This document shows positions 29,201-64,000 of a stretch of DNA of 64,000 nt, piece by piece. Below the pieces are notes generated by a model. That model was given only the letters and a program-made list of their open reading frames with translations, made no database searches and was not told the DNA's origin. The stretch is taken from the NCBI GenBank assembly GCA_001247695.2, contig LGRX02013659.1:53312-117311 (forward strand). Reading direction: 5' to 3'. Both the position numbers and the translations under genes were made by a program. How positions within the stretch are numbered: the first letter of the stretch is position 1; each line of letters starts with the position of its first letter. The stretch is from Cymbomonas tetramitiformis. Taxonomy: Eukaryota; Chlorophyta; Pyramimonadophyceae; Pyramimonadales; Pyramimonadaceae.

Positions 29201-32200
29201 CGGGTGGTGGGCGTGTGCGAGGAGCTGGTGCTGGACGCGCGCGGCACCACTGGGCACGGCGGGCGCAACCTCACCTACACGTACATGGTGCAGTCTGCGA
29301 CGGACGGCCACCAGCTGGATGCACTCGTGGAGCAGCTGTCGGAGCCCTCGCAAGACCCCGTGCTGACCATCGCGCGCGACGCCCTCGTGCCCGGGGCGGA
29401 GTACGTGTTCACGCTGACGGCGACCAACTTCCTGGAGCTCTCGGGGAGCACAACCCTGACGGTGACCAAGGCGACGTATGCCCTCCCCACTGTGAGCATC
29501 CTGGGGCCGCAGGTGCAGGACGTGGACCGGGCCAGCGACGTGGTGGTCACAGGTGTCGTCCACCTCGGAGGGTCTCATGTGTTCAGCGCGGCGCTCGGGC
29601 GGTGTGTTTCGAACACGGGGGAGGCGCAGGCGGCGATTCCTGAGGTGAACCTGACCTGGACCACCATGGTGGCCCCAAGCACGGAGGGCAGCCTGGCGGT
29701 GCATGCAGAGCTTGGCTGGACAACCCCTGCGATGGCGGCGTACAACGGGAGTGCGTACGGCGCCGTGCTGACCATTCCCGCGGGCCGGCTCCGCAGCGGC
29801 AGGACCTACCGTGTGGTGCTGACTGGGGCCCCGAACGGAGAGGAGGAGCGCGCGGCATCGGCGCACACCGAGCTCGTGGTGGGCACGGGGCCGGTGCAGG
29901 TGAGGGTGCTCGGGGGATCGCGACGGGTGCATGATAATCAAACGGTGGTGGTGGAGGCGCTGGTGCACGACCCGCAAGCGTCCGTGGACGCGGCTGGGTC
30001 GGAGTACCAGTTTCAATACACGTGGTCGCTCACCGCGGCGGAAGGCAACGGGTACGTCACGCCCTCGGCGTGGGAAGCAACGTTCAAGGAGCCCTCCGCA
30101 GAGAACGCCTTCGGCCAGAAGCTGGTGCTGGAGCCGGGCGCGCTTCTCCCGGGGAGCTACGAGGTGACGGTGCGCGCGGAGCGAGGCCCGCTCCTGCAGC
30201 CTGTGCGGGGCTCCGAGTACGCCACCGCGGTGCTGACTGTGGCGAGCGCGGAGACCACAGCGGTGCAGATCATCCCGGTGAACGACCCTGCGCGCCTGGC
30301 GCTGCTGGGGCCGGCGGACACCACCAAGGAGCTCAAGTTCCTGTGCCAAGTGGAGGTGCGCTCCCCTCGCCGCCCCCGCGCGCCTTCGGGAGCGTGCTCC
30401 CAGGCTCGCACCCAGCTTGTGACGTAGCCAAAACAAGACGGTCGGTGAGCTCAAGCCTCAAGAACCTGCGTGATGCGCCCTAGCCATGGATGAAGTGCGC
30501 CTACATGTTCAGGATTGATGGTTGTGCTTCCAACTGTTGAGACGTACTCGCAGTTGGATCCCCGCTCTTCACTGTGCTAGGGGCGCCAGGTCGATGGGTA
30601 GGAGCTGTGCTTGCATGCGGGCTCATGCTAGGGGGGTGGCGCACTCTCGATGACGCTCTCTGCACCGAGGTCAGGGAGGGTTGCCCGGGAGCACTTTTTC
30701 CAGGAAGGGTGCTGAGGGGGGAGGCGTCCGCAGGGTGATCCCCTAGCGCACACGTATGAGTGGAGCGTGGAGGGCAGCAACGGCGCTACCTTGACAGCTC
30801 TTGCGCCGGCATACAACACAACCAAGCCCAGCTCGATGCTGGTGGTGGCTCCGGGGCGGCTGGCGCCCGCGCAGCACTACATGGTGCGGTGTGCGGCGCG
30901 GCGCGGGGTGGCAACTGGGGAGGCAGAGGTGACCTTGACGGCGGAGACCTTCGCTTCAAGCGGGCGGCTCTCTGTGAGCTCACGGAATGCGGTGGCTGGG
31001 GAAGTAGTGACGCTTGAGGTGGTAGATTTCGTCGGCCCGGCGAATGGCAACTTGATGTACGAATATAGGTGCGAACGTGCAAGAATCCCACCTACCTCTC
31101 ATTGACACCCCCCTCCCCCTCATCACCCCTCCGGAGGTGCCTCAATACCTGCCCTCAACTTTTCAAAAGTTTCTGGCGCGCTCCTTGGCACCTGCTCCTT
31201 GCCTGGCGCCCGCAATGTACGCTTTCATGGACAAGTTGTTCCAAAGTGCTGTTGCTGACGTGGCACGTGCTGCGTGGCTCTCCAGGTATATCCGAAATGG
31301 CAACGGGGTGGAACTCCTACTGGCGGAGCGCACTTCGGCCAGCTACCTGCAAGCCCTCTTCCCCCATGGGACCATTACCCCGTTGGTGTACATCACGCAG
31401 ATAACCAATCACGGGTCGTCGATGGCGAGCACGGAGCAGGACCTGCCGGCGGGATTGCGAATGGTCTTCCAGGACGTAGCGGTGCAGGACTACTCGGGCG
31501 TGGTGCTGCAGGCGCACCGCACCCGCAGGCTGTCACAGACATTTCAGGCAGAGACGGCGGGAATGCTGAAGGCGGCCACCTTCGACCCGGAGTACAAGGC
31601 TGGGGATGTGTTTGGCGCGCTGATGGCAGCCACCGTGTTCGGCGCTGAATTTGGTGATGCAGAGGGCGACGATACATGCCGCGATGGGGACGGGGTGCAT
31701 ATGGCGGCGTTGAAGTCGGAGCTAGCGGCACAGCTATATGCGCTTGACGGCGCAGCCGCAGTGTCCAACGCGTACATCGAGCAGAGCGCATGTGCGGTGG
31801 CGGCGGTGGCGCGGGAGCCCAGTGAGCTGCTGCCAAGTGCCGCAAATGCCTTTGTGCAGATGATGTATGATAAAGCGGAGTTCATGACCAAGGAGGGCCG
31901 CCAGTCCCCCTTCACCGTGCCCGCGGTCCCCGGGACGGACCCTTTTGAGTGCCCCCTAGATGCGGTGGATCTGAGCCTGCGGGCGCTTCACCTCAACTGC
32001 AGCGGAGCGTCCAACCAGACTGTGGAGGGGATCTACCAGGACGCCGTGAACACGCTGCTGCAGCTGAGCTCCTCGATATCGTACAGGATGGACCCCGGAG
32101 ACGCCCCGCGCACCTACAACAAGAACACATTCTCAATGACAGTGCTCTCCTCACAGGGGTCACTCGCAGGGTCGGCCGGGGACGTCAGCTTCACCGTGGC

Positions 32201-36472: not shown

Positions 36473-37395
36473 TTGTCGCAAACCCGTGCACAACGTGGCC
36501 CTACGAATAAGAATATATCGTCTCAGTTGTAACACAGCTTCTCTCACTGTGACTATCTCCGAAGTGCTCACTTAGCACCACACATATTGGCACTATGGCA
36601 CCGTATAAGAGGACAGCAACACTTTCAACACTCAACTGACTAGTATCACAGCGGTATCTCCAAAAGTTCAAAATTTTGACAAGTTTATGTAGCATCACAT
36701 AATCGTATGCAAGCTCTTTTTCTCAACATGAAAAAGACTACAAGAAGGTAGTTCTGACAACTGAAAGTAAACAGTAAAACTTCAGACAAACACCAGCATT
36801 CGCACACGACGAAATATCATATCATAAATTACTTTAACATTAAACACTACTGTTTTCGCGGTCTGAGTGAGAGTTCTTGATTTTCTCAACCTCTGCGAAG
36901 GCAAAACAAAAATGAGCGTCTGCTCACACTTGGTAGCGCCGCCCTATATCTCTTGTCGCTATCTCCAGAATAGTGTAACACCAACTGTCTTGTCATTATG
37001 ACGAACTGTCAAGTTACTGTCACCAACTGTCGCGTCACGATCGCGACCTGCGCTGCGTTTGGCGCGCGTTCGTCACCAGGACTACTGTCCCAGGTGTCAC
37101 AACCCGGCTATGGTACACGACACGCCGCGGTTTGTGACAGCTGTCGCGAACCCGTGCACAACGTGGCCCTGCGAATAAGATTATATTGTCTCACGCAGTT
37201 GTAACACAACTTCTCTCACTGTGACTATCTCCGAAGTGCTCACTTAGCACCACACATATTATCACTGTGGCACTGTATAAGAAGACAGCAACACTTCCAA
37301 CACTCAACTGACTAGTGTGACAGCTGTATCTCCAAAAGTTTAAAATTTTGACAAGTTTATGTAGCTTCACATATGCAAGCTCGTTTCTCAACATC
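36473..37395. repeat. Pair of about 255-bp direct repeats, TRIM-like
   Basis: Bases about 36473-36729 and 37142-37394 are direct repeats of roughly 90% identity by eye. Both begin TGTCGC(A/G)AACCC and end CTCAACA, so both run TG...CA as LTRs do, with about 410 bp between them. No primer-binding site, polypurine tract or matching target duplication is visible, so a miniature LTR element is only one explanation. A plain segmental duplication is the other. Confidence 0.6.
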
Positions 37396-38627
37396 CGCCA
37401 TCTGTAGCTGCCACCAGTAGCACAGACATTAGATAATAAGAGCTTCGTTCTGCATCTTCAGTGGTAACACCATTTAAAGCAAACCTGCTCATAGTGAAGG
37501 TAAACATACCCACACCAGTGGACTCACCACCGCGTAACATCCTTGCACGCGTTAGAGGGTTACGAAAAACCATCACCCACATACATCTTCTTCCAATGGG
37601 TCCATGTTCCAGGTGTACAATCACGTGTGAACGACCTGCATAACAAAGCTTGCGGAAATACTGCGCTCTGCTCTCGGTCATATATGTCATATAATGTGAT
37701 GGCACATGAATGCACGCTACCACCCTGCTGGCCAGTACTGCCAATGGCAGCGCGATGTCCAGCACAGCGAACCACGGTGAAGTAACCACTGCGTCACACA
37801 CCCCGTACCTCTGTTTCCACGCACGATAGTTGCCTGGTTGCAGAGCTTTTAGGGCCTCGGGTCATTTCAACTGTGGGTTCCAATATCATTATTCATAACT
37901 TCGAAGTGAGGCCATTCCAATAGCATCACCTTGCTGATCACCCCTATACAACGACCATATCCCAAAAATAAGACACGCGGGCGCAAATGAGAAAAAAATG
38001 AGAAAGCATTAAATTGTATACCAAATTGGTTATTGGGGTTCTGAATGACAAATATGAGGGTTAATTTGAATAGTCCTTGAAGGAATTTCGAAAAATCTGG
38101 TTTTTGACTCTTCAAAGTAGCCACGCGAGTCACGCGTGCGGCAAGAAAACGGGAAATGTGGAAGTATCGTGCTAGGTGTGGAAAGTTATGATATTGCCTT
38201 ATGTTTGTGATCGAAATGTTAGACTTTTGCACTATTATAATATGTAATATTTTGACATTTCCAAAAATGCAACTATTTGCTTACATGGGAGAGATCCAGC
38301 AGATTTATGGCCCATTTTAGGGTGTTTGGAGGGTCACGTAGTAAAATACTTCTCATCGGGCGAAAGTGAGCAGCAAGGAACATATTTTCAAAAGCTAGTC
38401 TATTATGCTGCAAAAGTTGTTCAGGACTGAAAACAACCAGTGGTGATGCTCCCCCAGGCTTCATGTGACCCAACATGGGCGTTCAGCGGGTCAGGTTGCC
38501 CTGAAAAGGCTATTCCAGGACGATTCTCGGCAGCTATCAAGACCGGTCGGTAAACAGTATTATTTCGCGGGGAAAATAAACATATGTTAGAAGAAAAATA
38601 TCCCGCGGCAGGTGTTCGTTCCTACAG
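37396..38627. other. No gene supported
   Basis: AT-rich sequence with only short ORFs of atypical composition. Nothing recognisable is seen. Confidence 0.5.
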
Positions 38628-50002: not shown

Positions 50003-50590
50003 TGTAACAAACGCCGGCTTCTTATGGTACCGCGCCGGGTTTGTTCAGCTGGTGACACGCATGACAGTGGTGAAAGCATGACAGGCTTTGCTAAGATGAC
50101 CATCTGAGAGATGCAGACCTGCCAGAAAAGATATGGTCACTATCGAATGACCAGGGAATGATAAGATGAAGATGGCAGTGACTCCTTTGCCACTGACGTG
50201 TCAATCAGAATGTGGTAAACGGTAACATTGTTAGAGCTGGCATGGAATAATGACTTTCCATTGGCCAGATGAAGATTTAAGGGCTAGAACCCGTTACAGT
50301 TTTGGGAAATGTGACAGAGCATTGAGATATAAGTCAGCTCTGACCGTAGGTCAGGCTAGTGGACTCATTATTGTTTTGCTTCGCAAGTACTAGGTGACTG
50401 TTCGCGTGCCAGTGCTAGAGTGCTAAGACAGTTCTGCTCACAGCTTTTGTACACAATAATTCGTATTTTGTGGTTGTTATATCAATTTTGACGGATATGT
50501 TTTACTGCTGTTTTCATACTTTTTCAAAACAATAATGTCCTGCGCGGAGCGGCTTTTTATTTCAGTGTTAATCCAGAAGTAAAGACCCTT
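50003..50590 (+). promoter_or_regulatory. Candidate 5' LTR of the retrotransposon
   Basis: TGTAACAAACGCCGG at 50003 resembles the TGTAAC-type start of many Ty3/gypsy LTRs, and it contains an imperfect inverted repeat with CGCCGGGTTTGTT about 30 bp on. A TATA-like GATATAAG sits at about 50327. I could not find a clear CA end followed by a tRNA-complementary primer site (TGGCGAGAAG at 50590 is only a weak candidate), and the 3' LTR is outside the window. The boundary is therefore a guess. Confidence 0.25.
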
Positions 50591-50642
50591 TGGCGAGAAG
50601 TCAGCAGCAGTTTGTAAGAGCGGATTCGGAAGTCAGGCGACT

Positions 50643-52251
50643 CCAGGGGCACCCACGGTGCACTGGCGGACCCTTCTTCTTCCCTGAACTTGGTGGTACT
50701 TGCACTGAAAGAGGCTACCAGCGACGGCGGCAATGGATCAGCTCTGAATTCACTAGTGATGAGCGGCCTTCTTCTATCCGGTGATATGCTCAGCACCTTG
50801 TTCTGCAGTGAATCCAGGGGCACCCCTGGTGCACTGGCCTAACTGCTAACAGGTGTTCTTCAGTTTAGAGCTAATCAGCACGGCATGAGCTTGGGCGGCG
50901 GCGGCGACAGAGTCGATCAGCAGTGAATGTGCACCTTGATGAGCACTTCATCTCAGTGGTTTCTCCAGCTGGCCACCTGGTTTGAAGTGAATCCAGGGGC
51001 ACCCCTGGTGCACTGGTTTAACTAAAAGGCAAGTGTGCGTGACCTGGAAGCTAATTAGCGGCGACATCTGCCTGGACTTACCAGCTAAGAGTGGATCAGC
51101 AGTGAATGTGCACCTTGATGAGCCACTTCTCAGTGGTTTCTCCAGCTGGCCACCTTGTCTGAAGTGAATCCAGGGACACCCCTGGTGTACTGGCCTAACT
51201 GAAAGGCAAGTGTGCTTGACCTGGGAGCTAATTAGCGGCGGCATCTGCCTGGACTTACTAGTTAGAAGCAGATCAGCAGTGAGTTGCTGCTCTATGTCTG
51301 GAACTTCACCTTACGGTTTCTCGGGCAGCTCCACCCTGTCTGACGGTTAATCCAGGGACACCCCTGGTGTACTGGCCTAAGCCTGAAGTAGTAAAGAGCT
51401 TGCCAGAGGACTAGCAGCGACATTAGCTCTGAAGGCGACAAGTGAGTGGTCTTTTTAAGCAATATTCACTGGTGTGATACAGCTATTTGGTGGATTCAGA
51501 GTTAATTACTTGCCCAGCCTGGAGTGCTGCTTACCACTGGAGGGACTTTCTAGTTCTTTATCAGAAATGTGTGGGAGAATTCTTTTATCTTTTCTACAGT
51601 ATTGGTCAGCTGGTGAGGCCCTCATATCACCGGTGACCTTCTGAATTAGCAGTGGTGTTGCGAATCCAGGGGTGCTCAGCACACTGGCTTAGCTCCCAAC
51701 TCTGTGTAGCGACCTTGTTCTTGCTTACTGGACTGGGGAGTGAACTTCCATGCCAGCTACGGTACCCTTGATTAGCAGTGGTGTTGTGAATCCAGGGGTG
51801 CTCAGCACACTGGCCTAGCTCACACCGCTGCGTATTGGTGCTATTCTTGGTGCCGTGGTGGAAGAGGAGTTGTCCTCATGTTCGCTGTGCTCTTGGTGAA
51901 CTCTGGCTCAGCTAATCCAGGGGTGCTCAGCACACTGGCCCAGCTTTAAGCCCTCCTTGCACGAATATTCTGCATCTGCTGCGGATTTAGAGCGTTTAGA
52001 CACAGTGCTGGACCTTTCGAGGCTTTCGCTGGCTGCACGCGTTTCGTTCTTCCGCTTGTTCAGTACGGTGCTAATCCAGGGGCACTCAGTGCACTGGCCC
52101 AAGCCAGTCTGAATCACGCTTCCGTCCTACATCTGCTGCTGATTCGGAGCGCTTACACGTGGTGCTGGACCTCTGGGCTTGCGCTGGCTGCACGCACCGC
52201 GTATTTTGTCTGGTCAGCGCGAGGTGAATCCAGGGGCACTCAGTGCACTGG
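50643..52251 (+). repeat. Ten-copy hairpin repeat array in the retrotransposon leader
   Basis: Ten 22-24 nt hairpins lie at 50643, 50814, 50993, 51170, 51352, 51666, 51792, 51917, 52076 and 52230. All have outer stem CCAG/CTGG, a GG/A internal loop and an inner stem that changes in a compensated way: GCACC/GGTGC, ACACC/GGTGT, GTGC/GCAC and GCAC/GTGC. Most are preceded by AATC and several are followed by CCTA. The spacing drifts from about 177 to about 125-159 bp because each hairpin sits in a larger, diverged tandem unit. The array lies between the candidate LTR and gag. Confidence 0.85.
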
Positions 52252-52465
52252 CCTAAACCAGCCTGAATCAGGCCTCCAGTCTGCTGGCGAACGAGCTTTG
52301 CGCTGAGAGAGGGGACTCTTCCTTGGTCCCACTTGCTGAGCATTAACGCAGTACTTTACCACGGAGGGTGAGGCGGAGCCAAGCGCTGCCTCTGCCCAGT
52401 CCAGAGATCGTGAGGCACGACGACTGGCGCGAGAGAGGGTCAGTCAGGACCTTGACACGGGATAT

Positions 52466-53422
52466 ATGAGCACAGAGGGGTCGGGTCCAGAATCCATCCC
52501 CTCCGCACCGGCATCACCAGCAGCAACAGCGCTCGCAGCAACAGCACTCGCAGCAGCAGTAGCAGCCTCGGCGCCTGCAGCCAATCAGTTCCTCTTTGCG
52601 TTTGACGACGTAGACGAGATGGATCACTATGACAAGGATAGTCACGCACTTGACAAGGAAGATGTCAAGCTCCACTACACTGGTGGCAAGAACGAGGATA
52701 GGGCGCTCTTTATCAGGCGTTTCGTTGACATGGTAGCGAAAGTACAGCGGGCTTACGAGGCTAGGAAGCGCAGGCACATGAGGACAGCGGCTTTTCACGC
52801 GCTCAGTCAGCAGGCGAAGAAGGCTTTCGTTGACTCCAAGCCAGACTACAGATCGTTGTGGGACAGCCTGCCCTCGTTCCTAGCAGGGGACGATCATTCA
52901 ACCTCAGTCGCCTATGACTGGTGGTGCGCTGCATATCTGAAGAATGGCATCATGGCCTCACACGCGTGTCATGTCTTGAAGGATCTCACCATGAGAGACG
53001 CTTTTCAGGGTTCAGTGCGCTGCGCACAACCTCCTTTCCATGAGCTGGCGCCAGGATCGACATGGGCAGTCTGCAAGGTGTTCGAGGAAGGCGATGCCGA
53101 TGGCGAAGAGTCTGATGAGTGGGAGAGCGAGGGAACCTCCACTAATAAGGGTCTCACGGGGACAGATGGCACGGAGGATTCTCACTATTTTTGGGCCTTG
53201 AGGGCTTTCATTGCAGAGCTCGAAGCCAAGTTCCTGATGAAGGGCACCAAGGAGAAGGAGGATCTGTTGATAGCCAAGTCGCAGACCACCGAGCAGGACG
53301 GCCTCGCTTACGTGAAGAGCTGTCGCCGCAGGGAGGCAGCGCTCAACGTCGGCAAGATGGTGGAGGACCCCATTGTCAGGCAGAACATCGAGGAGTGCAT
53401 CAAGGGTCTGCGCATCAAATAG
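52466..53422 (+). CDS. Retrotransposon Gag, N-terminal part (318 aa, ends at in-frame TAG)
   Basis: The ATG at 52466 follows the hairpin leader. After an Ala/Pro-rich start, the sequence has the helical pattern of a Ty3/gypsy capsid domain: FIRRFVDMVAKVQRAYEARK, an aromatic YDWWCAAYLK, FWALRAFIAELEAKF and an EDPIVRQNIEECIKGLRIK end resembling the ...F-x-x-GL-x... end of retrotransposon gag. The frame stops at TAG (53420-53422), and the same frame continues immediately with YRDRVSEQLRV, which looks like the next part of the same domain. Capsid assembly is the expected role. Confidence 0.75.
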   Translation: MSTEGSGPESIPSAPASPAATALAATALAAAVAASAPAANQFLFAFDDVDEMDHYDKDSHALDKEDVKLHYTGGKNEDRALFIRRFVDMVAKVQRAYEARKRRHMRTAAFHALSQQAKKAFVDSKPDYRSLWDSLPSFLAGDDHSTSVAYDWWCAAYLKNGIMASHACHVLKDLTMRDAFQGSVRCAQPPFHELAPGSTWAVCKVFEEGDADGEESDEWESEGTSTNKGLTGTDGTEDSHYFWALRAFIAELEAKFLMKGTKEKEDLLIAKSQTTEQDGLAYVKSCRRREAALNVGKMVEDPIVRQNIEECIKGLRIK

Positions 53423-56400
53423 TACCGGGATCGCGTGTCCGAGCAGTTACGCGTCAGTCATCCTGCCCCCAACAAGGTCACATGGGAGGACCTGGAGGTC
53501 ATCGTGGAGGTGCAGGACAAGCTGAAGAACGATGCGGAGTCTTGGGCTCTCACACTGCAGCAGGAGCTGGTTCGTAGACTCACCTGCGTGTACTCTTGCT
53601 ACGAGGCCAGGCAGCTGGGGCTTGACCTGGCTGCACTAGTGTCCGCCATGAGGCGCTCTGGTTCTGCCCCCAAGACTGGAGACAGACGCAGGGACTCCAG
53701 GAAGAAGGAGCAAACACAGCATGGTGGCGATGACGCCAAGAAGCCTTCGAGGGAGGTGAACAATGCAGAGCGCCAGAAGCCTACCTACGGCAAGGTGCCA
53801 CCACCTGACGCTTCAAAGAAATTCCAGTGTGATTGGTGCTTCACACGCTTGCCCCACGCTCCAGAGCGTTGCTACACGGGGTGCCGTGATGCCCGCGTGC
53901 CTCCGAACTTCCACAAGGACAGGCAGAATTCGAGGTGGCCGGATGAGGTCAAGAATGCCCAGATGCGTGCTTACAACATCGCGCACCGCTTCGACAACCA
54001 CAAGATGGGGATCACCACCAAGGAGTGGCTTAAGCTCCCAGAGGCCAAGCAGAAGCAACCGCAGCAGCAGCAGCAGCAGCAGCAGGTGGCGGCCAGCGCT
54101 GAGGTCAAGGAGAAGCTCGCTGCAGAATTGACAGGCCTTCAGACAGGGACACCTCCAAAGGGGGACAAGGGCGCCGATGCACAGGCCCGGTCAGAGGACA
54201 GCGATGCTGAGACTGAGTACGACTCCCACTTCAACCAGCAGGCTGAGTATGAGGAGGATGACAAGGACTGCCCTGCTGATGATGGGCTGGGAGATAGTCA
54301 TGATGTTGGCATCAGTCACGCACCAGGTCTCCAGGCCAGGGCCGCAGTCGCCCTGGGCAGCACTCAGAAGATGCAGAGCTTCCAGGTCAAGACGCCGGAG
54401 GAGTTCGACAAGGCCGCTCAGGTGCCCAGAGCCGTTCCTCCCAACGTCCTCAGCAGGAAATTTCACCTGCTTGCGTCCAACCTTCGCAGTTCCGTGCGCA
54501 CTTGCTCGCAGATTGCGGCCATCCTGATATCCCAGCACGCCATCGACCTCCCAAAGGACATCGAGAACCTCCTGGCGCTGGAGGAGCTCATGGGCAACGA
54601 GCCGAATAATGCGACAGAGCAACCCACCGAGGTCAACGAGCATGAACTTGAGGACACGCACGCCACAGTGGTGCAGGGGGTAAGAGAGGGGGCAGATAGT
54701 GCAGAACACCGCACGATCGAGGAGGTGCCACTGGACCAGATGCCCAACGGTGTGGTCGACAGCGCCGCCGCCCGGTGTGCAGCCGCTGCCTGTGTGAACG
54801 ACCTGGGGGTGGTTGACTTCAGCGACCATGGACATGTACGAGCTGGCACCATCAAGACCCTCGCCTACGACGTGCTGAGGGCAAAGATGAAGCAGCACCT
54901 GACCGACGAGCAGGTGTTGCTGATGACTCAGGTGCAGCCCATCTGCAAGTTGCAGAATGCCACCCTGCATGAGGGTCTGGCGTTGGTGTCGTCTGGTGGT
55001 GAGCTTATGCTGTACCGGGCGATCCTCATGGACACCGGCGCCAACTGCAACATCATCTCCATCGCGGTCGTGAGGCGGCTGGGCCTCACGGTGTACGAGG
55101 CCAGCACCGGCGCCAAGGTCACCAGGTGTGACAACAGCCCTACGAAGTTCACGCATTACTGCTATGTGGACGTCATACTGGCTGCGGGCACACCGCACAT
55201 GACGCTTCACCGGTTATACGCCTTCGTGACCTTCGAGCCCGAGAACTCTTGGGATCTGCTGATAGGCACCGGGCCACTGAAGAACTCCTTGATGATCGAC
55301 ATCAAGCCTGGAAGTTGCGTGGCCGTGTCACATGCGCCAACGATTTTGGGCATGGATGCTCAGGTGGTGCTTCCGTTGGTTGACATGACGCCACCCAGGC
55401 GTCCCCACCTGCCCAGGCGGGTGGACCCAGTGGTGTGTTTGAAGTCGGAAATCTTTGGGCAGGGAATGGAGGGTGAGTGGCTAAAGCACCCACCTCTGAG
55501 CACAAGGGAGGAGAGATTTGCTGCCTCTGGGATTCGGCCTGAGCACATCCATGACATTGACGAGTCACCATTGGGGTCACCAGCGCCTTCGCCAAGGCCT
55601 CCTGCTGAGCCCCCACGACCCCGAGTCATCACGCGAGCGGAGCTCGAGGAGAGGTGTCGCCATCGGACGTGTTCCCTTGAAGGTGGCCGCAGGAGTGACC
55701 TGGCGTCACTGGCGCCCGCCGTACAGGCAGCGTCGGAGCGCATGCTCGAACAATTCTACGAAGAGCCGAACCCCTGGAAGGGTGGACACGCGAGGTGGGT
55801 CACTGAGGACCAGGTTGCTGGGGATCGTCCGTCTCTGGATGCCCCTCTCGACTGCAACTGGGCGGATCAGAGACTGTACCTGGACCGGCACCATGTCGCG
55901 CGTCTCTGCCGCATCCTTCGGGACCCAGCCCAGGACATGCCGGCCAGACCTTCCCAAGAACATGTCTGCGTGGAATTCGTTCGCTGTCTCGAGCAGAAGT
56001 GGGTGACGGTGGACCAGCTGATGCCCCCTAACTGGCTGTACGTGGACCAGAAGCTGGATCACGATGAGGAAAAGGACCGCTGGGTGCTCAATGGTAGCTA
56101 CATGACGCACGTGCCGTCCTCTGCCAGCAAGCAGGATGTCGTCAAGCCAAGGGAGGGAGGCAGATCGCGCGACGACCTCAACCCGATCCAGAGACTGCAG
56201 GACACGCTCCAGGCGTTGTTCAAGTACCCCAGTGGTGAGGTCACTGGCACCCTTATGTGGGACCTGAAGGAGCGTGTCCTCTGTGTCCAACCGAGCACAG
56301 CCACGCAGTACCTCGAACTGATGCGCTGCACGTTGGATCATGCGCTCGTGTACAATAGTGAGGAGTTGCTGGACGAGCTCCAACTCCCTCACTGGTACGA

Positions 56401-58252
56401 GAGCACTGGTGTCTGGACATACCAGCTGCTCAGGTACCTCTGCCCAGTGGACATGGAATCCCTCTCGGATGGCATACTCCGGCGATATAATCGGCATGGC
56501 AGCAAGGGGCCACCTCTAGAGCTCGTCTCGCTGGGTTCGAACACCAAGTACTACCCGGTGGGGGATGGTCTTGGGGGGCCTGGCAGGGTGTTCTCCGAGA
56601 ATGCCGCTGCCCAGGAGTACGTGCGCCTGGGGGAGATGAGGAAGATGCTCAAGTCAGTCAACACCAGACAGCAGGGCTACGATGCGCTCGATGCAGATGC
56701 AGTGCGTAGGCCACCACCGCCCAACAACATGGTCAACACGAGGCTCACGAAGCGAGCCCCTACGCAGCCACCCGCTCCTGCCGCAGGCGCAGTACCATCT
56801 CAGGCTGCCGCAGGACCATCTCAGGCTGTCGCAGGACCATCTCGGGCCAGGTCCATCAGCCGCTCGCCACCGCGCTTGTCACACATCGCATATCGCCCCA
56901 CGCCGTCGCCAGCATCCAGCGACGTTGGGCCCGTGGACAATTCTCGTGAGTTGTCACCTCGATTCGTTTGCGCCACCGCGGCTTGGCCGTCAGATCCTGC
57001 TGATAGCCCTTCTCGAGGGAGGTCACCCCCTGCATCGCCTGCGATGACCAACGTTGGCTCATGGGCGGACTCGATCCGTGTCCCACGTGATTCCCGATCA
57101 CTTTCCCCGGGAGGCCCGCCTCCTACGCCTCCGAGTCCACCACGGGCGAATCATCTGTCTCAGTCCCCTGCGAGGGCGCCTCCATCTCCAGCGGGGTCAG
57201 ATTGGGATGCCGTACGAATGGCCACCACATCCGACAGTTCAGTGTGCAGATTTCTGTCCGTGGAGGAGGTGAGAGCCTTGAAGGATCGCCGCAACCTTAC
57301 CGTCTTTATGGTGAGGTTTGGCGTGACATTCGTTGACCGTTTCAGGGGCCGACGAGTCGTGTATGAGCTTGGCGTGTGCAACCGGGAGCGAGGTCTCAGG
57401 CTGCGGAAGTATCCGGGTATCACCAGCAAGGTCGCCAAGAAGCATGACAAAACCATCGCGTGCGGAGACCGGGGCTGGCGCCTCCCTCTTGGGGGACAGA
57501 CAACGTCTTCCAACCTGCTGGAGGCTATCATGTCGGCCTACGCTGATCTGTCGCATCATAGCTCAGGGCACAGGCGCGCAGGGGGTCATGCGAGGAACAT
57601 TGAGTTCTCGCTGTGCGCCTACGTGGAGCTTGGGTCAGCACACGTGCTGCGCTGCATGGCGCACCCGAATGCCACACCAGTGTACTACATCTTCATGGAG
57701 GACCAGCTATGTCGTACTTGGCACGCTGAGTTCACGAACGAGTACTTCATGCGAGACGACCGGAAGTTCACATGCTTGCAGTGGGGAACCAGGGAGGTGG
57801 CCGCGCCATGGTTGCTGCCAGCCCTGGGGGCCTTGGAGGCGCGTCGTCTTCCGCCGCCGCCGCCCGCCCATCAGGCTCGAGTGGCCGAAAGGTCCGAACA
57901 CGTGGATACGGCCCGGCGAAGGAATGTGTACGAGGTTCGCGACCCCCCTGCGCGTCATCAGTGCCGGCCTTCTGTCCGAACGTCTGAGCATCAACCGGGC
58001 GCGGGCGGTGCTGCGCGCTCGTCCGCTCCTTCCGTCGACCGCCATGGGACTGCTACCCATGTCGTCCATGCGTCGAGGGCGTCCAGGATGCCGGCCAATC
58101 ATGACTCACGACGTCTTCCTTCTCCGACTGTTTCGGTACGCAGCGAGGTGACGGAGGCGTTTGAGCGCCACACAGACGAACAACGTGAGGCGCAGAGACA
58201 GCAAGCGCATTTTCATCAGGGCTCCCCGGGCACAGCGGGCGGGTGGCCCTGA
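53423..58252 (+). CDS. Gag C-terminal part, aspartic protease and unassigned region (about 1,609 codons)
   Basis: This is the same frame as gag after the TAG. Order: the rest of the capsid domain, a basic region, a Cys/His cluster (CDWCF...CYTGC) that may act as nucleocapsid zinc binding, and poly-Gln (about 54058-54084). Then comes a retropepsin-type aspartic protease with active site DTGA at 55031-55042 and a following LLIGTGPL flap-strand pattern. After that come about 950 residues I cannot assign, including a Ser-Arg/Ser-Pro-rich stretch (about 56750-57220) and a Cys/His-bearing compact segment (about 57240-57830). The frame ends CCC-TGA at 58250 and overlaps the RT frame. The lack of an ATG after the TAG argues for expression as a Gag fusion. 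Confidence 0.75.
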   Translation, partial: YRDRVSEQLRVSHPAPNKVTWEDLEVIVEVQDKLKNDAESWALTLQQELVRRLTCVYSCYEARQLGLDLAALVSAMRRSGSAPKTGDRRRDSRKKEQTQHGGDDAKKPSREVNNAERQKPTYGKVPPPDASKKFQCDWCFTRLPHAPERCYTGCRDARVPPNFHKDRQNSRWPDEVKNAQMRAYNIAHRFDNHKMGITTKEWLKLPEAKQKQPQQQQQQQQVAASAEVKEKLAAELTGLQTGTPPKGDKGADAQARSEDSDAETEYDSHFNQQAEYEEDDKDCPADDGLGDSHDVGISHAPGLQARAAVALGSTQKMQSFQVKTPEEFDKAAQVPRAVPPNVLSRKFHLLASNLRSSVRTCSQIAAILISQHAIDLPKDIENLLALEELMGNEPNNATEQPTEVNEHELEDTHATVVQGVREGADSAEHRTIEEVPLDQMPNGVVDSAAARCAAAACVNDLGVVDFSDHGHVRAGTIKTLAYDVLRAKMKQHLTDEQVLLMTQVQPICKLQNATLHEGLALVSSGGELMLYRAILMDTGANCNIISIAVVRRLGLTVYEASTGAKVTRCDNSPTKFTHYCYVDVILAAGTPHMTLHRLYAFVTFEPENSWDLLIGTGPLKNSLMIDIKPGSCVAVSHAPTILGMDAQVVLPLVDMTPPRRPHLPRRVDPVVCLKSEIFGQGMEGEWLKHPPLSTREERFAASGIRPEHIHDIDESPLGSPAPSPRPPAEPPRPRVITRAELEERCRHRTCSLEGGRRSDLASLAPAVQAASERMLEQFYEEPNPWKGGHARWVTEDQVAGDRPSLDAPLDCNWADQRLYLDRHHVARLCRILRDPAQDMPARPSQEHVCVEFVRCLEQKWVTVDQLMPPNWLYVDQKLDHDEEKDRWVLNGSYMTHVPSSASKQDVVKPREGGRSRDDLNPIQRLQDTLQALFKYPSGEVTGTLMWDLKERVLCVQPSTATQYLELMRCTLDHALVYNSEELLDELQLPHWYESTGVWTYQLLRYLCPVDMESLSDGILRRYNRHGSKGPPLELVSLGSNTKYYPVGDGLGGPGRVFSENAAAQEYVRLGEMRKMLKSVNTRQQGYDALDADAVRRPPPPNNMVNTRLTKRAPTQPPAPAAGAVPSQAAAGPSQAVAGPSRARSISRSPPRLSHIAYRPTPSPASSDVGPVDNSRELSPRFVCATAAWPSDPADSPSRGRSPPASPAMTNVGSWADSIRVPRDSRSLSPGGPPPTPPSPPRANHLSQSPARAPPSPAGSDWDAVRMATTSDSSVCRFLSVEEVRALKDRRNLTVFMVRFGVTFVDRFRGRRVVYELGVCNRERGLRLRKYPGITSKVAKKHDKTIACGDRGWRLPLGGQTTSSNLLEAIMSAYADLSHHSSGHRRAGGHARNIEFSLCAYVELGSAHVLRCMAHPNATPVYYIFMEDQLCRTWHAEFTNEYFMRDDRKFTCLQWGTREVAAPWLLPALGALEARRLPPPPPAHQARVAERSEHVDTARRRNVYEVRDPPARHQCRPSVRTSEHQPGAGGAARSSAPSVDRHGTATHVVHASRASRMPANHDSRRLPSPTVSVRSEVTEAFERHTDEQREAQRQQAHFHQGSPGTAGGWP

Positions 58253-61200
58253 TGCACAACCAACGCTGTGGCCGTGGGCCGCCTGCACAGGCAGTCCACT
58301 TGAGGCCAGGTGTCCTGCGGGCGTGTATCTCGTTTGCGGGCAGTGCAGTGGTTTGGTGGTGGCTGGGACGCGGTCCCATTCCCATGGCCGCCGTGTGGGC
58401 GATGTGGGAGGCAATGGCATGGCACTTGTCATGGTGCCCTTTTCAAGATTGGTGGAGGCGCTGCGTGGCCTCGTTTTTGGACCAGCTGCCAGTATGGTGG
58501 TCGTCTGCTCGACGTTATCCCCGTCGTGCATGTTACGACATTTGGGTCTTATGGGCTCTCGCCTGCGTTTGGTACGTTGGATTGCTTATCGTGCGCGCCA
58601 CGGGCATCTACTGTATGCTGGCGTGCACCGTGTTCGTGCAGAAGGTTGGATGGTGGTGCCCCTTCGGGGGGTGGTCGTTTCCTTGGCGTGCTGGTCGCAG
58701 TGTGCAGCCGCCCTCCTCCTCGTGGTCCTCGCCTGGCTTTGGGTTTGTACCAGCATTTACGCTGAGGACGTGGCGTGCCATGCCTCCTGTATCGTGCACG
58801 ACCCTCTGGACGCAGGTCACATTCAACGTGGCCGTGGATGGACTATTTCGTCCCTGCGTTGGTCCCAAGTTTTCTTGTTGGGCCGCGTGTGCCTGCCCAC
58901 TTTGCCGGCCAGGTTGGACAAGCCTCGCTTCGCGGCGCGCTGGGCGCAGCTTCGGCGCAATCTCCGACTTCATCGCATCGCGCAGGCCGCCTACATGGCG
59001 CTTGTCCTCGCAGTCGTGGTCTCCACCGCCGCTGGTGGGAGTACTCGCTTGGCGCACGGGGGGTGGAGAGTAATGGCGTGCTTCTTCGCTTCGAACTCGC
59101 CGGCAGCCGCAGTGCATTTCAACCGAATTTTGCGATTTTTTCTGCTTTTGTGCGGAATCTTGTGGGTCGCTGGCAAGCTGACCGAGAGTATGCCTACGTA
59201 TGATGTCATGTCACCCACGCGCAGTGCCTGGGGTTCGTCCCCCTGCACTTCTTGGGAGGCTCAGCAATCCTCAAGGCAATGGGAGCCGGGCTGGGAGGCC
59301 AACGTCGCGGAGCAGGATGAGGTCTTGCCGTACACCGTGCTGGACGAGCTTCAACCTCTGGGTGACACGACTGTGACCAAGGACGAGGCAGCGTGGCTCG
59401 ACACTGAGCTCAATGCCACGTTTGGAGGACATCCTGACTTCAAGGAGGAGCACTGGGAGGAAATGCGGAATGTTCTTCGCAGGTGCAAGACCACTTTTGC
59501 CAACAGTCCTCACGATCTGACAGGCTACAAGGGCAAGGCGGAGCACAACACGTTCTCCATTCCTTTTGTAGACGAATCCAAGGCCGCCTATCAGAGACCC
59601 AGGAAGTACAGTCCGGGCGAGCAGGAAATCATCGATATTCATTGCAAGGAACTTTTGGAGTATGGCTTCATAGAGCCTGCAGCCAAGCACTGCAGGCATG
59701 CGAGTAACGTCGTCGTGGCTGGCAAGAAGGATCATGAGACTGGCCTGTGGACCCAGACGAGATTCTGCGTGGACCTCAGGGGTGTCAACCGGCACTCCCT
59801 CAAAGACAATACGCTGCCACATCGACCAGAGGAGATCTATCAGAAAGTGGCGAAGGCCAAGTTCAAGACCACGCTGGATGCCACCAAAGCCTTCCACCAG
59901 ATTCTCATGGCCACGGAAGAGGACAGGAGCAAGACGGCGTTTTGGTGGAAGAATCAGCTGTACCAGTACACCTCGATGCCTTTTGGTGCAGCTGGAGCTA
60001 CTTCTGCGTTTGTGAGAATCATGGACTACGAGTTACGTCACTTGCAGCATTGTACGGTGGCATACGTCGACGACGTAGTGGTCTACACGGATTCCACGCC
60101 TGAGCAGCATCTGAAGGACGTTGAGGACGTATTGCGCACCTTGGGGGACGCTGGCATCCGATTGCATGCAGGCAAGAGTACCTTTGGTGCAGCCACGGTG
60201 GACTTTCTGGGCTACCGCATTGGTCACAACTCCATTGGCGCGCAAGAAGCCAAATGTAAGGCCATCCAGGAGCTTCCAAGCCCCCAGGACAAGACTGGGC
60301 TCCGCTCGATCTTGGGCATGATGAACTACTACAAGGGCCTGGTGGGTGAGCCAGGGGGGCGAAACTACTCTGAGATGGCCCGCCCTCTCAATGACCTGCT
60401 CAAGAAGGAGGTCACTGACATCAAGGGAGCCTGGGGGAAGGAGCAAGATCAAGCACTTCAAGACCTGAAGGATGCTCTCTGTTCTGGGAGATGCCTGAGG
60501 CCTATCGATTATGACAGACCCCTCATATTGTACACCGATTGGAGCACCTATGGCATTGGCGCAGTGTTGGGCCAGAAGGACGATGATGGGAAGGAGTACA
60601 TATGTATGGCAATCAGCCGATCCCTGAGTAAAACGGAGAGACAGTACGCCAGCTTCAAGGGGGAGATGCTCGCAGTGGTATGGGCAGTGCGCACACTGAG
60701 GCAGTACTTGCATGGAGTTCACTTCACGTTGGTGACCGACCACTCACCGCTCACCACCCTGATGGAGAAGGCCGATCTCCAAGGGCAACACCTACGCTGG
60801 GCAATCAGTTTGCAGGAGTTCGACTTCACGGTGCAGTATCGTCCAGGAGCCAAGAACAGCAACGCTGACGCGCCGTCTCGCTACCCACTGCCGTCCACGA
60901 CAGATGAGACTGGAGCGAGGCATGAGAGGGAGAAGGTGACTGCGTTTCACGCAGGCGTGGGGTGTGTTCACACGAAGGACTTCTGTGACTACTTGTGCTT
61001 TATGTTGGCTGGGGATGCGTCCCCAGGGGAAGAGGCCACGCCAGAGGTGCAGGTTGCCAACTACTGCAGGATGGCTGCCATGGAGCAGCTGGGCACGGGA
61101 CCAGTGCATCGTTTATTCGACTTGCACTACCGCGAGGAATTGGAGTGCAATCATGGGGACATGTTTGACACTGACTTACCCAAGCTGGTGACCGACTCTG

Positions 61201-61397
61201 GAAGGCTAGCCAGGGCAGCTTGGAAGGCGCTGAGCCTGGTGAGGCCTACGCGAGGCACGTATGGCGAGGGAAGCCCCGCTGTGTACAGCAATGAGTACTT
61301 TGAAGGCGAGCGCATCTTAAAGCCTGAGAAGGTGGACACCAGGGTGCTGGGCAGGGTTCTTCTCGCAAGCTCGGGAGGAAGGTGTGGTGTGCTATGA
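58161..61397 (+). CDS. Pol: hydrophobic N-terminal region, reverse transcriptase and RNase H
   Basis: The frame is +1 to the protease frame. The first 330 residues are hydrophobic with about four potential membrane helices. RT follows from about 59300: a YQRPRKYSPGEQEIID entry, motif A LDATKAF (about 59874), SMPFGAAGA, and motif C YVDD at 60063-60074. The gypsy-type RNase H comes next with LYTDWSTYGIGAVLG (about 60528), an E in FKGEMLAVVWAV and VTDHSPL. These residues are the polymerase and nuclease metal ligands and are intact. The frame ends CTA-TGA at 61395, where the methyltransferase frame (+1) takes over. It converts element RNA to DNA in cytoplasmic particles. Confidence 0.88.
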   Translation: MSATQTNNVRRRDSKRIFIRAPRAQRAGGPDAQPTLWPWAACTGSPLEARCPAGVYLVCGQCSGLVVAGTRSHSHGRRVGDVGGNGMALVMVPFSRLVEALRGLVFGPAASMVVVCSTLSPSCMLRHLGLMGSRLRLVRWIAYRARHGHLLYAGVHRVRAEGWMVVPLRGVVVSLACWSQCAAALLLVVLAWLWVCTSIYAEDVACHASCIVHDPLDAGHIQRGRGWTISSLRWSQVFLLGRVCLPTLPARLDKPRFAARWAQLRRNLRLHRIAQAAYMALVLAVVVSTAAGGSTRLAHGGWRVMACFFASNSPAAAVHFNRILRFFLLLCGILWVAGKLTESMPTYDVMSPTRSAWGSSPCTSWEAQQSSRQWEPGWEANVAEQDEVLPYTVLDELQPLGDTTVTKDEAAWLDTELNATFGGHPDFKEEHWEEMRNVLRRCKTTFANSPHDLTGYKGKAEHNTFSIPFVDESKAAYQRPRKYSPGEQEIIDIHCKELLEYGFIEPAAKHCRHASNVVVAGKKDHETGLWTQTRFCVDLRGVNRHSLKDNTLPHRPEEIYQKVAKAKFKTTLDATKAFHQILMATEEDRSKTAFWWKNQLYQYTSMPFGAAGATSAFVRIMDYELRHLQHCTVAYVDDVVVYTDSTPEQHLKDVEDVLRTLGDAGIRLHAGKSTFGAATVDFLGYRIGHNSIGAQEAKCKAIQELPSPQDKTGLRSILGMMNYYKGLVGEPGGRNYSEMARPLNDLLKKEVTDIKGAWGKEQDQALQDLKDALCSGRCLRPIDYDRPLILYTDWSTYGIGAVLGQKDDDGKEYICMAISRSLSKTERQYASFKGEMLAVVWAVRTLRQYLHGVHFTLVTDHSPLTTLMEKADLQGQHLRWAISLQEFDFTVQYRPGAKNSNADAPSRYPLPSTTDETGARHEREKVTAFHAGVGCVHTKDFCDYLCFMLAGDASPGEEATPEVQVANYCRMAAMEQLGTGPVHRLFDLHYREELECNHGDMFDTDLPKLVTDSGRLARAAWKALSLVRPTRGTYGEGSPAVYSNEYFEGERILKPEKVDTRVLGRVLLASSGGRCGVL

Positions 61398-64000
61398 GCC
61401 ATGTGGAGGCCTCTGTGCTGGCCTAGAGATGTTGCTCCGCAGTGGGATGAAGGTGGATCGCTACCTGTATCAGGACATATCCCCGAGCATTCGGACAGTT
61501 GCCAGGGCCAGGTGCACGGCGTTGCTAAGACGATATCCTGACCTCATTTCGCCCCGTGCAATAGAATTTGGGGCTCTACTCTAAGACCTGCACGACACCA
61601 CCAGTGCCGACTTCATACGAGCAGGAGCTCTTCAAGGACGCCGGTGGGTTATGGTATGTGGGTTCCCATGCCAGGATCTCTCTCCTGCTGGAACACTCAC
61701 AGGCCTGGATGGCAGGCACAGCAAATTTTTTTATGAAGTGGTTAGGCTTCTGTCCACACTCCAGCAGCTGCAGCAGCAGAGGCCTCCAGGCTATATCCTG
61801 GAGAACGTTTCCCCGTTGTCACACAGACCCGGAACCAAGATCAGGGACGAGGTGTTCCCGTACATTGCCAGCGTCATTGGTCGACCAGTGTCCTTTGATG
61901 CAGCACAAGCAGGCGCTTACGCACACCGACTACGGGCGTATTGGAGCAACTTGTTCCAGATCCACCAGTTTCGCTCCGTTATGAGCAAGGTGGCGAGACC
62001 AGAAGGACGAATTGTATCGTCAATCCTATGCAAGGGCTGGCATCCCAGGCCAGTGATAAGGACAGACCGCTCGCCTCACTACGTGGTGAACGTGGTGGGA
62101 GAACCGTTGAGGGCACTTCCGACCATCATGGCGACGCAAGGGTCGAGAGCGTTCAGAAGAGCGAGGATGGGCACCGTGGTGCGCAACCAGGACGATGAAG
62201 ACGCCGAGGAAGAATCTCGAGAAGTGAACCTCGACGAGAAGGCGCGAGCCATGGGCTACAGCGCTAGTGAGCTACGCATGGCCGATGGCCTGAACGACGT
62301 AGAATTGGCAAGCATTCTGGGCCTGGCCATGGATCGCAGGGCAATGGAGCTGCTGATGGCAGTCGCAGAAGCAAGCAGAAAGGGGCTCCCTCACAGCAAG
62401 GAATCCCCAGAGGCGGAGAATTCCCCAGGACAGCCCATCGTTGTAGACAACAACTGGGCAGACCACGAGAGGTCGGACCTTCAGCAGAGGCAAGCTTTGC
62501 TGGCGGAATGGGTTGAGAATTCGAATGCATATACTCAGCAGGTGGCGAAGACTATGACTCACCGTGACTGGGAGGAGAAGCTGCAGGTAATGTGCTCGCA
62601 AGGGCAGAAAGGTGCAGAAGGAATTGGGGCTCAGCGACAGAAGGCTGGAACCAAGAAGAAGAAGAAGAAGAAGAAGAAGAAGGAGTGGCAGCTCTACACT
62701 ATGGAGCAGTATCGTCAGAGGCATGAGAGCCACTTCGTGAAGGAGGGCGCAACTCCAGCAGCGCGCGTGGATGTGCCTGCTTGGAGTCCGCCTGCCAAAG
62801 ATTCAGAGAGGAGACTCCCCAGGTTGGCGTGCACCACCAGATTCGAGGACTTGATGGCCAGCGTGGCCGAGCAGCAGGTAGACCGTGACAAGCATCGAGA
62901 TGTACACGACGATGCATGGTGCCTCAGATGGTTGAAGTCCAATGGCAGCGTGAGGTTGCCAGAGGAGGAAGTTCGTCGTGTGAGGAGACGCGCAGCACGA
63001 CATCGATGGGATGAGGCTACGGACGAGATCTACATGATCACGCTGTCGGGCAAGGAGGTGAGAATACCTAAGCCTGCTGACCGTCTTGCGTTGGTCAAGG
63101 AATACCACTCCAGAACTGGACATTGGGGCATAAGGCGTACGCAGCATCTTTTGTGGCAGCGCCATTGGTGGGCCGATTTGAAGAAGGACGTGGAGGCTGT
63201 GGTCACTCAGTGTGAGACCTGTCAGCGTGTAAAAACTCATTATGCGAGAGAGGAGGCATGTTTATCCCCCCTCGAGATCGTGTCGTTCATGTATCGCTGG
63301 TCGCTGGATTTGGCATGGCCTTCGAGGAGACATACCAAGACTGGCAACAACAGAGTGCTCATCATGACCGAGCACTACACCAGGTTCATAGTCTGTGTAC
63401 CCATTCCCGACAAGGAGGCAAGGACCATCGCAGCGGCATTTCGCAGTCATGTCCTGGCTGTGTTTGGTGCGCCAGCAGAGTGCTTGGTGGATGGAGGTAA
63501 GGAGTTCGAGGGCGAGTTCAAGCAGCTGTGCAGAGACTGCCTGATTGACCGACGAGTCACCTCACCAGACTCACCAGAAGGCAATGGGCTGACCGAGCGA
63601 GTGGTGCGCACTATGAAGTATTACTTCAAGAAGCTTGCCTTGGAGAAGGGTCTCGATTATGAGTGGGATGAGCAGCTCTGGCCGCTAGTGCTGAGTTATA
63701 ATGCAGCACGCCAGGAGTCCACGGGGGTGGCGCCGTTCACCATGTTGTTTGCCCAAGAGGCAGTAGTGCCGCCAGATTTGAAGCAGGCACCCAGCATGGA
63801 TTTCGGTGCTGAGGTCGAAGATGAGAAGGATGCCAGAGTCAAGGACCTCCTCCGGAGAGCACAGGTGGTGAGACGACTGATGGTGCACGCTGGTTGCAGC
63901 CTGGAGGTCGCACAGCATCGTGATACATTACATTATGAAGGGAGAAGGGGTGGGGGCTATGAGCCTAGGCCACACCAGTTTAAGATGGGCGATTTCGTCT
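61321..64000 (+). CDS. C5 cytosine DNA methyltransferase fused to DDE integrase, 3' end outside window
   Basis: This frame is open from 61321 to the window end except for one TAA (61582-61584). Methyltransferase motifs occur in order: motif I VVCYEPCGGLCAGLE (61384), a VDRYLYQDI motif II, motif IV GFPCQDLSPAG with catalytic Cys codon 61669-61671, motif VI ENV (61801-61809), motif VIII AHRLRAYWSNL (61921), motif IX LPTIMATQGSRAF (62116) and motif X-like ILGLAMDRRAMELLM (62314). The VDRY, FFYEVVRLL and AHR-R-YW spellings resemble the DNMT3/DRM group. A Lys10 run (62653-62682) links to the integrase: HHCC zinc motif (YHSRTGHWG ... CETC, about 63103-63219), then a DDE core with D in SLDLAW (about 63307), D in LVDGG (about 63490) and E in GLTERV (about 63595), spaced D-x34-E. 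The element would methylate CpG or other cytosines in its own cDNA or at targets. That role is inferred. Confidence 0.87.
61582..61584 (+). other. In-frame TAA inside the methyltransferase domain
   Basis: The frame on both sides encodes one continuous methyltransferase domain (motifs I-II before, IV-X after). A single TAA separates them without a frame change. It is either an inactivating mutation of this copy or a readthrough site. Host genes in the window end in TAA, so the codon is a normal stop in this organism. Confidence 0.9.

Follow-up and report, generated by a model that had tools for sequence, protein, structure and literature searches.

A Gypsy-type retrotransposon of Cymbomonas tetramitiformis with a DNMT3-like methyltransferase between RNase H and integrase

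Introduction

DNA methyltransferases (DNMTs) carried by retrotransposons have been published from dinoflagellates and from Klebsormidium (PMC5890265), precedents to which a preliminary description of the DNA studied here had pointed, naming dinoflagellates and charophytes. Among the closest described systems is KnitGypsy-Dnmt3 of Klebsormidium nitens, which, according to the legend of Fig. 4 in that paper, combines Gypsy-type domains, a Dnmt3-type methyltransferase in the Pol open reading frame (ORF) and DIRS-like repeats. In dinoflagellates, SymbioDIRS-Dnmt3 and SymbioLINE-Dnmt likewise hold a DNMT within a retrotransposon, the former a Dnmt3-type enzyme in a DIRS Pol, and CpG depletion is reported for SymbioLINE (PMC5890265). 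We herein describe a further case from a 64,000-nucleotide stretch of the green alga Cymbomonas tetramitiformis (assembly GCA_001247695.2, contig LGRX02013659.1, positions 53,312 to 117,311), the whole of which is called the window below. It contains a broken, truncated copy of a high-copy Gypsy-type Cymbomonas retrotransposon with a C5 cytosine methyltransferase between RNase H and integrase. DNA methylation is commonly directed against transposons; here a very successful element carries the writer itself.

As regards function, the two SymbioDIRS-Dnmt3 domains tested both methylate CpG in yeast, and the authors, in the sections concerned, favour methylation of the element cDNA in cis (de Mendoza et al. 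2018, PMC5890265). DIRS elements with Dam-like N6-adenine methylases are also on record, and like the Cymbomonas element they combine a polyprotein-borne methylase with terminal repeats of the DIRS type (PMC5890265, PMC6338049). Gypsy and DIRS elements encoding DAM and DCM occur in green algae among others, with antiviral defence proposed (Morozov et al., PMC6338049), so that an algal Gypsy element with a methylase is in itself no novelty. DNMT3s in retrotransposons are further noted for streptophytes and dinoflagellates, and the passages on them do not name Cymbomonas (PMC12344493).

The Cymbomonas element differs from each of these systems. KnitGypsy-Dnmt3 belongs to another deep branch of green plants, and its copies are said by its authors to be fewer than those in Symbiodinium, whereas Cymbomonas holds about a thousand motif-IV matches; compared by description only, the account of KnitGypsy-Dnmt3 in the relevant part of PMC5890265 mentions neither a PHD finger nor a second methyltransferase, both of which are found in Cymbomonas. 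SymbioDIRS and SymbioLINE are tyrosine-recombinase or LINE (long interspersed nuclear element) elements, whereas the Cymbomonas element has a DDE integrase and 4-bp target duplications. Chromoviruses share with it the order of reverse transcriptase (RT), RNase H and integrase and a chromatin-reader module after the integrase, but they carry a chromodomain, and the Cymbomonas element has a PHD finger and no ordinary pair of long terminal repeats (LTRs). Dam-like N6-adenine methylases of DIRS elements have reportedly been described by Goodwin and Poulter; unlike such elements, the scanned Cymbomonas frames are without a tyrosine recombinase, and an enzyme for 5-methylcytosine (5mC) takes the place after RNase H.

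In Cymbomonas, three scaffolds at >10,000x coverage were reported with homology to a chromodomain peptide, RNase H and cytosine methyltransferase, along with at least one expressed retrotransposon, the element itself not being described in the text concerned (Burns et al. 2015, PMC5741210). The 2023 genome paper reports Ty3/Gypsy chromoviral elements, and no word starting with "methyl" occurs in its available text (PMC10675990). Among the open-access literature matches listed, largely judged by their listing, none was recognisably on the Cymbomonas element, on a Gypsy pol that combines a PHD finger and a DNMT, or on two methyltransferase domains per pol. DNMT retrotransposons are thus already published; less expected are the surroundings of the DNMT. 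Split repeats occur beside an integrase, the pol also holds a PHD reader and a further methyltransferase fold, and another Gypsy family likewise has a methyltransferase after RNase H.

Architecture of the window copy and its family

The element starts at position 50003 of the window and is cut off at 64000, where the window ends together with contig C10625, inside the integrase; no PHD finger, C-terminal domain or 3' repeats are therefore present here, and these parts were read from other copies. The Pfam DNA_methylase profile, with which the preliminary description had proposed to search, matches the frame 61585-63999 (PF00145, E 4e-9, 36.8 bits, cut-off 22). The same stop-free stretch also matches Integrase_H2C2 and rve, and RVT_1 and RNase H match in the frame 58152-61394. 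These matches bear out a retrotransposon-borne C5 methyltransferase between RNase H and integrase, and motifs I, IV, VI, VIII, IX-like and X-like, as well as a linker of ten Lys, were found where they had been placed. The domain extends from about 61340 to about 62390. The single intact ORF that had been assumed did not hold, as RNase H lies in frame 3 and the DNMT in frame 1, with a TAA (61582-61584) between motifs I and IV; the frame change after RNase H and this stop disable the window copy. Its features are:

50003..50526, + strand: A1, the split direct repeat that forms the 5' end of the element, starting TGTAAC, with unique DNA upstream; full-length identity (524 bases) of 96.8% with A1 of the complete C25055 copy
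50527..52339, + strand: 5' leader with degenerate tandem repeats (direct-repeat families D1-D5), aligning to the C25055 5' leader
52340..53422, + strand: first long open frame (stop-free, 360 aa), gag-like by position only
53423..58249, + strand: long open frame of 1609 aa; the aspartyl-protease profile Asp_protease_2 matches weakly, below cut-off (E 0.043), at about 55022-55111
59793..60221, + strand: reverse transcriptase core (RVT_1 E 7e-22)
60432..60821, + strand: RNase H (RT_RNaseH E 4e-33, RT_RNaseH_2 E 1e-30)
61384..61584, + strand: DNMT3-like domain, N-terminal piece with motif I, in a frame other than that of RNase H and closed by the TAA; uninterrupted in copy P0047
61585..62390, + strand: DNMT3-like domain, main piece with motifs IV, VI, VIII, IX-like and X-like (PF00145 E 4e-9; family profile against DNMT3A E 5e-15)
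61396 to 62242, + strand: DNMT motifs I "EPCGG" 61396, IV "PCQDLS" 61666-61683, VI "ENV" from 61801, VIII "AHRLRAYW" 61921-61944, IX-like 62110, X-like 62242
62653..62682, + strand: Lys10 run, linker between DNMT and integrase; six Lys in copy P0047
63073..63237, + strand: integrase H2C2 zinc-binding domain (PF17921 E 1.5e-16)
63295..63576, + strand: DDE integrase core (rve E 2.7e-7, 31.2 bits, just under the cut-off of 32.6)

The names of the C5 motifs are those that we take to apply at these positions. The N-terminal DNMT piece alone gives no Pfam match, and the C25055 counterpart of the 1609-aa frame has an Asp_protease_2 match that is likewise below cut-off (E 0.014).

The window's own assembly (851.7 Mb, 25,745 contigs) was searched for further copies. 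A 29-mer covering motif IV, with <=3 mismatches allowed, occurs 528 + 493 = 1021 times, fragments included, as against 0 for the reversed control. In a six-frame protein search, 56 of 11,925 first-look candidates were scored with the window's 805-aa frame, which runs from just after the window's stop to the window end and so leaves motif I outside the count. Each of the 56 covers the full query at 96-100% identity, and no internal stop is present in 45, one of which is the window's broken copy. Open frames of the family reach 2414 aa, and the pol order in fuller copies is RT, RNase H, DNMT3-like domain, H2C2/DDE integrase, PHD finger and C-terminal methyltransferase fold. One 2414-aa frame has RVT_1, RNase H and H2C2 above cut-off and rve just under it (29.0 bits against 32.6). 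The family is real and multi-copy, and the element is probably functional at the family level. It is also a prasinophyte element, as had been surmised, since protein matches at 92-97% identity are named Cymbomonas tetramitiformis.

Split repeats with integrase-type ends

The preliminary description had spoken of a Ty3/gypsy element; a plain LTR structure of that type is not supported, because the direct repeats are split. In the complete copy on C25055 (16.6 kb), the order is A - coding - B - GC - A - B, with A of 524 and B of 219 bases, and the repeats are nearly identical (A1/A2 99.8%, B1/B2 99.1%). A full B-GC-A-B is present at five 3' ends (C25055, C25243, C25015, C17760 and C2144), and A alone, after unique DNA, at all five 5' ends seen (the window, C25055, C25243, C9924 and C24219). 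The 3' end on C5559 has one extra A-B unit, its later B copies being without about the first 43 bases, and that on C8322 reads GC-A-B with the last 4 bases of B absent. The C14073 stretch is covered only from within a B, with unique DNA after that B, and the C10195 and C20882 copies are cut within A and B.

The termini are of the form TG...CA (TGTAAC...GCGACA), and both copies with two ends are flanked by 4-bp target duplications, AACA and GTTT. When both ends were sought for ten further copies in 21 stretches, 7 stretches held A or B, 14 held neither and none of the copies yielded both ends. The element thus has RT and RNase H upstream of a DDE integrase within one pol, TG...CA ends and a short target duplication, all as in Ty3/Gypsy elements, whereas an identical LTR at each end is absent, both copies with two ends reading A1...B1-A2-B2, and the split direct repeats are those of DIRS elements. 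No Pfam match to a tyrosine recombinase occurs in the four scanned frames of the complete copy, where a DDE integrase is present instead. The repeat order is of the DIRS/PAT type, and the ends and target duplication are of the DDE integrase type. This combination calls into question the rule tying split repeats to tyrosine recombinases. A purine run, AGATGGGGGA, lies before B1.

The C5559 3' end (L033:90-1485) reads B-GC-A-B-GC-A-B, as is expected from tandem or circular intermediates or from unequal recombination. Within the window, 37373-37944 is probably an old related fragment: in inverted orientation it shares 71% identity with the 3' part of pol (C-terminal domain) and the beginning of B1 in the complete copy.

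Class and descent of the methyltransferase

A DNMT family profile built from nine natural sequences was compared with solved structures. It matches DNMT3A at E 5e-15, DNMT3B at 1e-11, and DRM2 and M.HhaI at about 2e-7, and the best 27 of the 56 PDB sequences listed are DNMT3A, 3B or 3C by name. PDB entry 4onj, titled only "DNA methyltransferase" and presumably DRM-type, matches at E 1e-8. Three stretches are collinear with DNMT3A, the outer two weakly (8.3 and 6.7 bits), and their linear order argues against a DRM rearrangement. Of the DNMT3/DRM resemblance proposed earlier, the DNMT3 half is therefore supported, the element methyltransferase being DNMT3-like by profile and not DRM-rearranged.

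We examined 56 DNMT rows, comprising 18 probably environmental relatives at 35-45% identity and 38 others (Cymbomonas-named, EukProt and one locus). The Cys of motif IV, the Glu of motif VI and both Arg of motif VIII, all present in the window, are each kept in 18/18 of the probably environmental relatives, that is, across relatives differing at 55-65% of positions. Among the other 38 rows, counting those with a letter at the site, Cys is kept in 15/16, Glu in 21/23, the first Arg in 24/25 and the second in 23/25. The Pro before the catalytic Cys of motif IV is replaced in P0054, P0056, P0059, P0026 and others.

Protein searches, which relied on short words of 5 residues in common and scored roughly the 8,000 best candidates, so that distant relatives may be missed, returned Cymbomonas-named elements, EukProt rows and probably environmental rows, several with the RT-DNMT-integrase-PHD layout, as well as DNMT-less Gypsy proteins and PHD proteins. 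None of the rows bore the name of a free-standing DNMT3 of a host or of a bacterial enzyme, nor that of a protein from Klebsormidium or a dinoflagellate. As to a host or bacterial donor, the search with the DNMT domain (E <= 1e-5) gave only Cymbomonas-named, EukProt and further unnamed rows, and no relative was confirmed in viral contigs and prokaryotic genome contigs at the sensitivity of the peptide patterns used.

In a tree of the 34 of 39 rows with an RT (P0012, P0035, P0041, P0042 and P0053 were left out, and no DIRS RT was included), the 22 DNMT-labelled RTs form one side of a branch with support 100/99. Five of the DNMT-labelled rows (P0043, P0067, P0068, P0069 and P0078) carry only part of the DNMT, and since rows were found via the DNMT-containing part, DNMT-less members may exist within the clade. 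RT and DNMT trees have 10 of 11 splits in common (14 of the 21 rows with both domains), and this agreement shows joint inheritance after one capture, a linkage judged from protein rows and trees. The preliminary description had considered an independent capture; by analogy, the three odd features held in common with KnitGypsy-Dnmt3 argue at least as much for a shared element lineage.

Open frames of 383-401 aa that match PF00145 almost over its full length, unlike the element DNMT, also occur in the genome and are possibly viral or other mobile DNA:

C25294:282358-283398
C20845:223118-224164
C8:99148-100191
C6:106542-107585
C2041:2511-3554
C154:15526-16569
C16883:10882-11925

C-terminal methyltransferase fold

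By fold comparison, the C-terminal domain of fuller copies has a methyltransferase fold nearest to N6-adenine enzymes. In Foldseek, the top rows are O-methyltransferases with TMq of about 0.4, and the M.TaqI and HsdM rows reach 0.54-0.58; the N6-adenine reading rests on these TMq values and on the VIA-align order, in which Z differences <1 count as ties and O-methyltransferases follow within about 1.6 Z units. In sequence, the domain gave only sub-threshold MethyltransfD12 matches in 3/4 slices (E 0.026-0.26) and none in the Cymbomonas slice, with nothing in PHROGs and one chance-level PDB row. Its motif reads SPWF in place of the usual (N/D/S)PP(Y/F/W), and motif I is degraded in several relatives, so that the domain may be a non-catalytic remnant. 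We consider it a putative N6-adenine-type methyltransferase fold, assigned by fold alone.

A second Gypsy family with a Dam methyltransferase

On C20882, another Gypsy element is inserted in the B repeat of a DNMT3 element. It encodes an aspartyl protease, RT, RNase H, Dam (PF05869, 37.7 bits, cut-off 28.1), H2C2 and rve (22.8 bits, under cut-off), and after the integrase a chromodomain (30.2 bits, cut-off 25.1) and a C-terminal PF00145 match (27.1 bits, cut-off 22), whose C5-like part also matches a phage DNA methyltransferase family at E 1e-12. The element is spread over three overlapping frames, which suggests a possibly broken copy, and no LTRs were found for it in the stretch examined. 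Two further loci have the same RT and Dam at 54-61% identity (Dam profile E 6e-13 and 2e-10). The three loci are:

L011:35-5772 and L010:8605-9999 (C20882), - strand: Dam-family copy, with Dam after RNase H and before integrase
L032:164-751 and L015:8195-8632, - strand: Dam-family loci with RT and Dam

Dam in the slot between RNase H and integrase is, by these profile matches, apparently a family trait. The C-terminal C5 part was matched only at C20882, so that the exchanged pair of methyltransferases rests on one locus; the C5559 stretch ends before that region, and at the C10195 Dam locus, in a stretch that is long enough, neither integrase nor C5 part was matched.

A LINE-like element lies at C10195:108258-111572 on the - strand (end of L016 and start of L017). 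Its second frame ends in a VYGNPPF stretch that recalls N6-adenine methyltransferases and has no Pfam match.

Proposed mechanism and alternative explanations

The best explanation as a whole, to which we give a probability of roughly 55%, is a high-copy Gypsy-type element whose pol-borne DNMT methylates the element's own cDNA in cis, with PHD targeting and a stored end junction. From the DNMT lying in the same polyprotein as RT and integrase we infer that it would methylate the CpGs of fresh double-stranded cDNA in cis, before or during integration. A new copy would then land pre-methylated and be tolerated as ordinary silent host DNA, and the PHD finger may help to pick chromatin, like the chromodomains of chromoviruses. 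Within B-GC-A, 2 bp separate the two termini of the element, and this segment would be a stored end-to-end junction for rebuilding both ends, probably via a circular intermediate, before the integrase cuts and inserts.

Self-methylation is suggested by anatomy, precedent and CpG depletion. Three copies of the element give a CpG observed/expected ratio of 0.73, with 0.43 in the 5' leader; the ratio is 0.95 elsewhere in the window and 0.90-1.05 in flanks. When copies are compared, C/T and G/A differences occur 2.1 times as often at CpG as at other sites (1048/38,324 versus 2146/164,012, counted as pairwise site comparisons that are not independent). The element probably is or was CpG-methylated, and the depletion does not tell the agent. 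With about a thousand motif matches and the nanopore reads that others have made of Cymbomonas (PMC10675990), self-methylation is directly testable.

Several points weigh against this explanation. Host silencing predicts CpG depletion equally well, and the CpG control discussed below is one element, which itself has a C5-methylase-like domain. The Pro of motif IV is kept in only 6/18 of the probably environmental relatives, with Glu, Asp or Ser in the other 12/18; it is near-universal before the catalytic Cys, and these residues are unusual there for C5 enzymes. The pooled ratio of nonsynonymous to synonymous substitution (dN/dS) of the DNMT is low, but hardly lower than around it, at 0.137 versus 0.188 for the spacer before it and 0.165 for the linker after it (11 copies each). 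Elsewhere it is 0.078 for RT-RNase H (6 copies), 0.131 for integrase (10) and 0.203 for the C-terminal region (8); the PHD value, 0.079 from 8 copies, was set aside since its pS (0.28) does not agree with that of the neighbouring regions. With spacers nearly as low as the DNMT, and with dN lowered by the choice of copies according to their protein score against the window, this sample does not by itself show selection aimed at the DNMT, and the residues kept across distant relatives are the better evidence. Target duplications are known from two copies only, no tRNA primer site is obvious by eye after A1, and the Klebsormidium Gypsy DNMT was inactive in yeast, a result that its authors term inconclusive in the section concerned (PMC5890265).

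The cis explanation could be extended to a generalization that we advance tentatively and regard as possible rather than probable. Green-algal and marine Gypsy elements would carry an epigenetic toolkit per polyprotein (a 5mC writer, a chromatin reader and an N6-adenine-type methyltransferase), mirrored in the second family by Dam and C5, and would routinely mark their own DNA with two modifications, and split-repeat elements would use a DDE integrase to insert from an end-to-end circular intermediate. Marking of their own DNA may be a general strategy of algal retroelements, as the pairing of 5mC and N6A-type domains suggests.

An unlikely but serious alternative is that the CpG deficit reflects host silencing and that the DNMT does something else, such as RNA binding or methylation, or scaffolding of the polyprotein. 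The raised CpG transitions would be expected of any methylated repeat, the genome holds other PF00145 matches outside elements, and the missing motif IV Pro and a dN/dS not far below that of the spacers would fit another role. On the other hand, Cys, Glu and both Arg are kept throughout the probably environmental relatives, and on one and the same contig the ORF part of a Gypsy element without DNMT3 has a CpG ratio of 0.93, as against 0.74 in a neighbouring DNMT3 element.

It is likewise doubtful that the two methyltransferases form one protection device, in which 5mC and N6-adenine-type marks would shield the cDNA from nucleases or label it as self. The SPWF motif, the degraded motif I and the possibly non-catalytic state of the C-terminal domain speak against this, as do the lack of a C-terminal sequence match above cut-off and the closeness of O-methyltransferases in the fold ranking.

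Action in trans, whereby many copies would methylate host CpGs genome-wide, make methylation an uninformative default and weaken silencing, seems improbable. The number of motif-IV matches and the highly covered scaffolds with cytosine methyltransferase homology, along with an expressed retrotransposon (PMC5741210), are in its favour, and a similar speculation was made for Symbiodinium in the discussion by de Mendoza et al. (PMC5890265); the CpG deficit, however, is greater within the element than elsewhere in the window, a pattern that agrees with local rather than genome-wide methylation. That the assembly is chimeric, or that a host gene was inserted just once, is hardly credible, with nothing for it beyond the frameshift and stop of the window copy, and a chimera is ruled out by the recurrence of the fusion in full-length frames of several contigs, in Cymbomonas-named NCBI proteins and in proteins from other sources. 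Of the two outcomes that the preliminary description had named as refuting it, a missing DNA_methylase match and copies lacking the domain with a chimera in the window, neither was seen in the profile search or among the protein rows and trees.

Other open frames in the window

Apart from the element, the window holds a 5023-aa open frame at 15356-30427 with filamin and GEX2-type Ig repeats and a REJ-domain match, which suggests a large probable surface protein. Another open frame, at 11073-12374, contains a cadherin-like beta-sandwich domain (E 2e-13).

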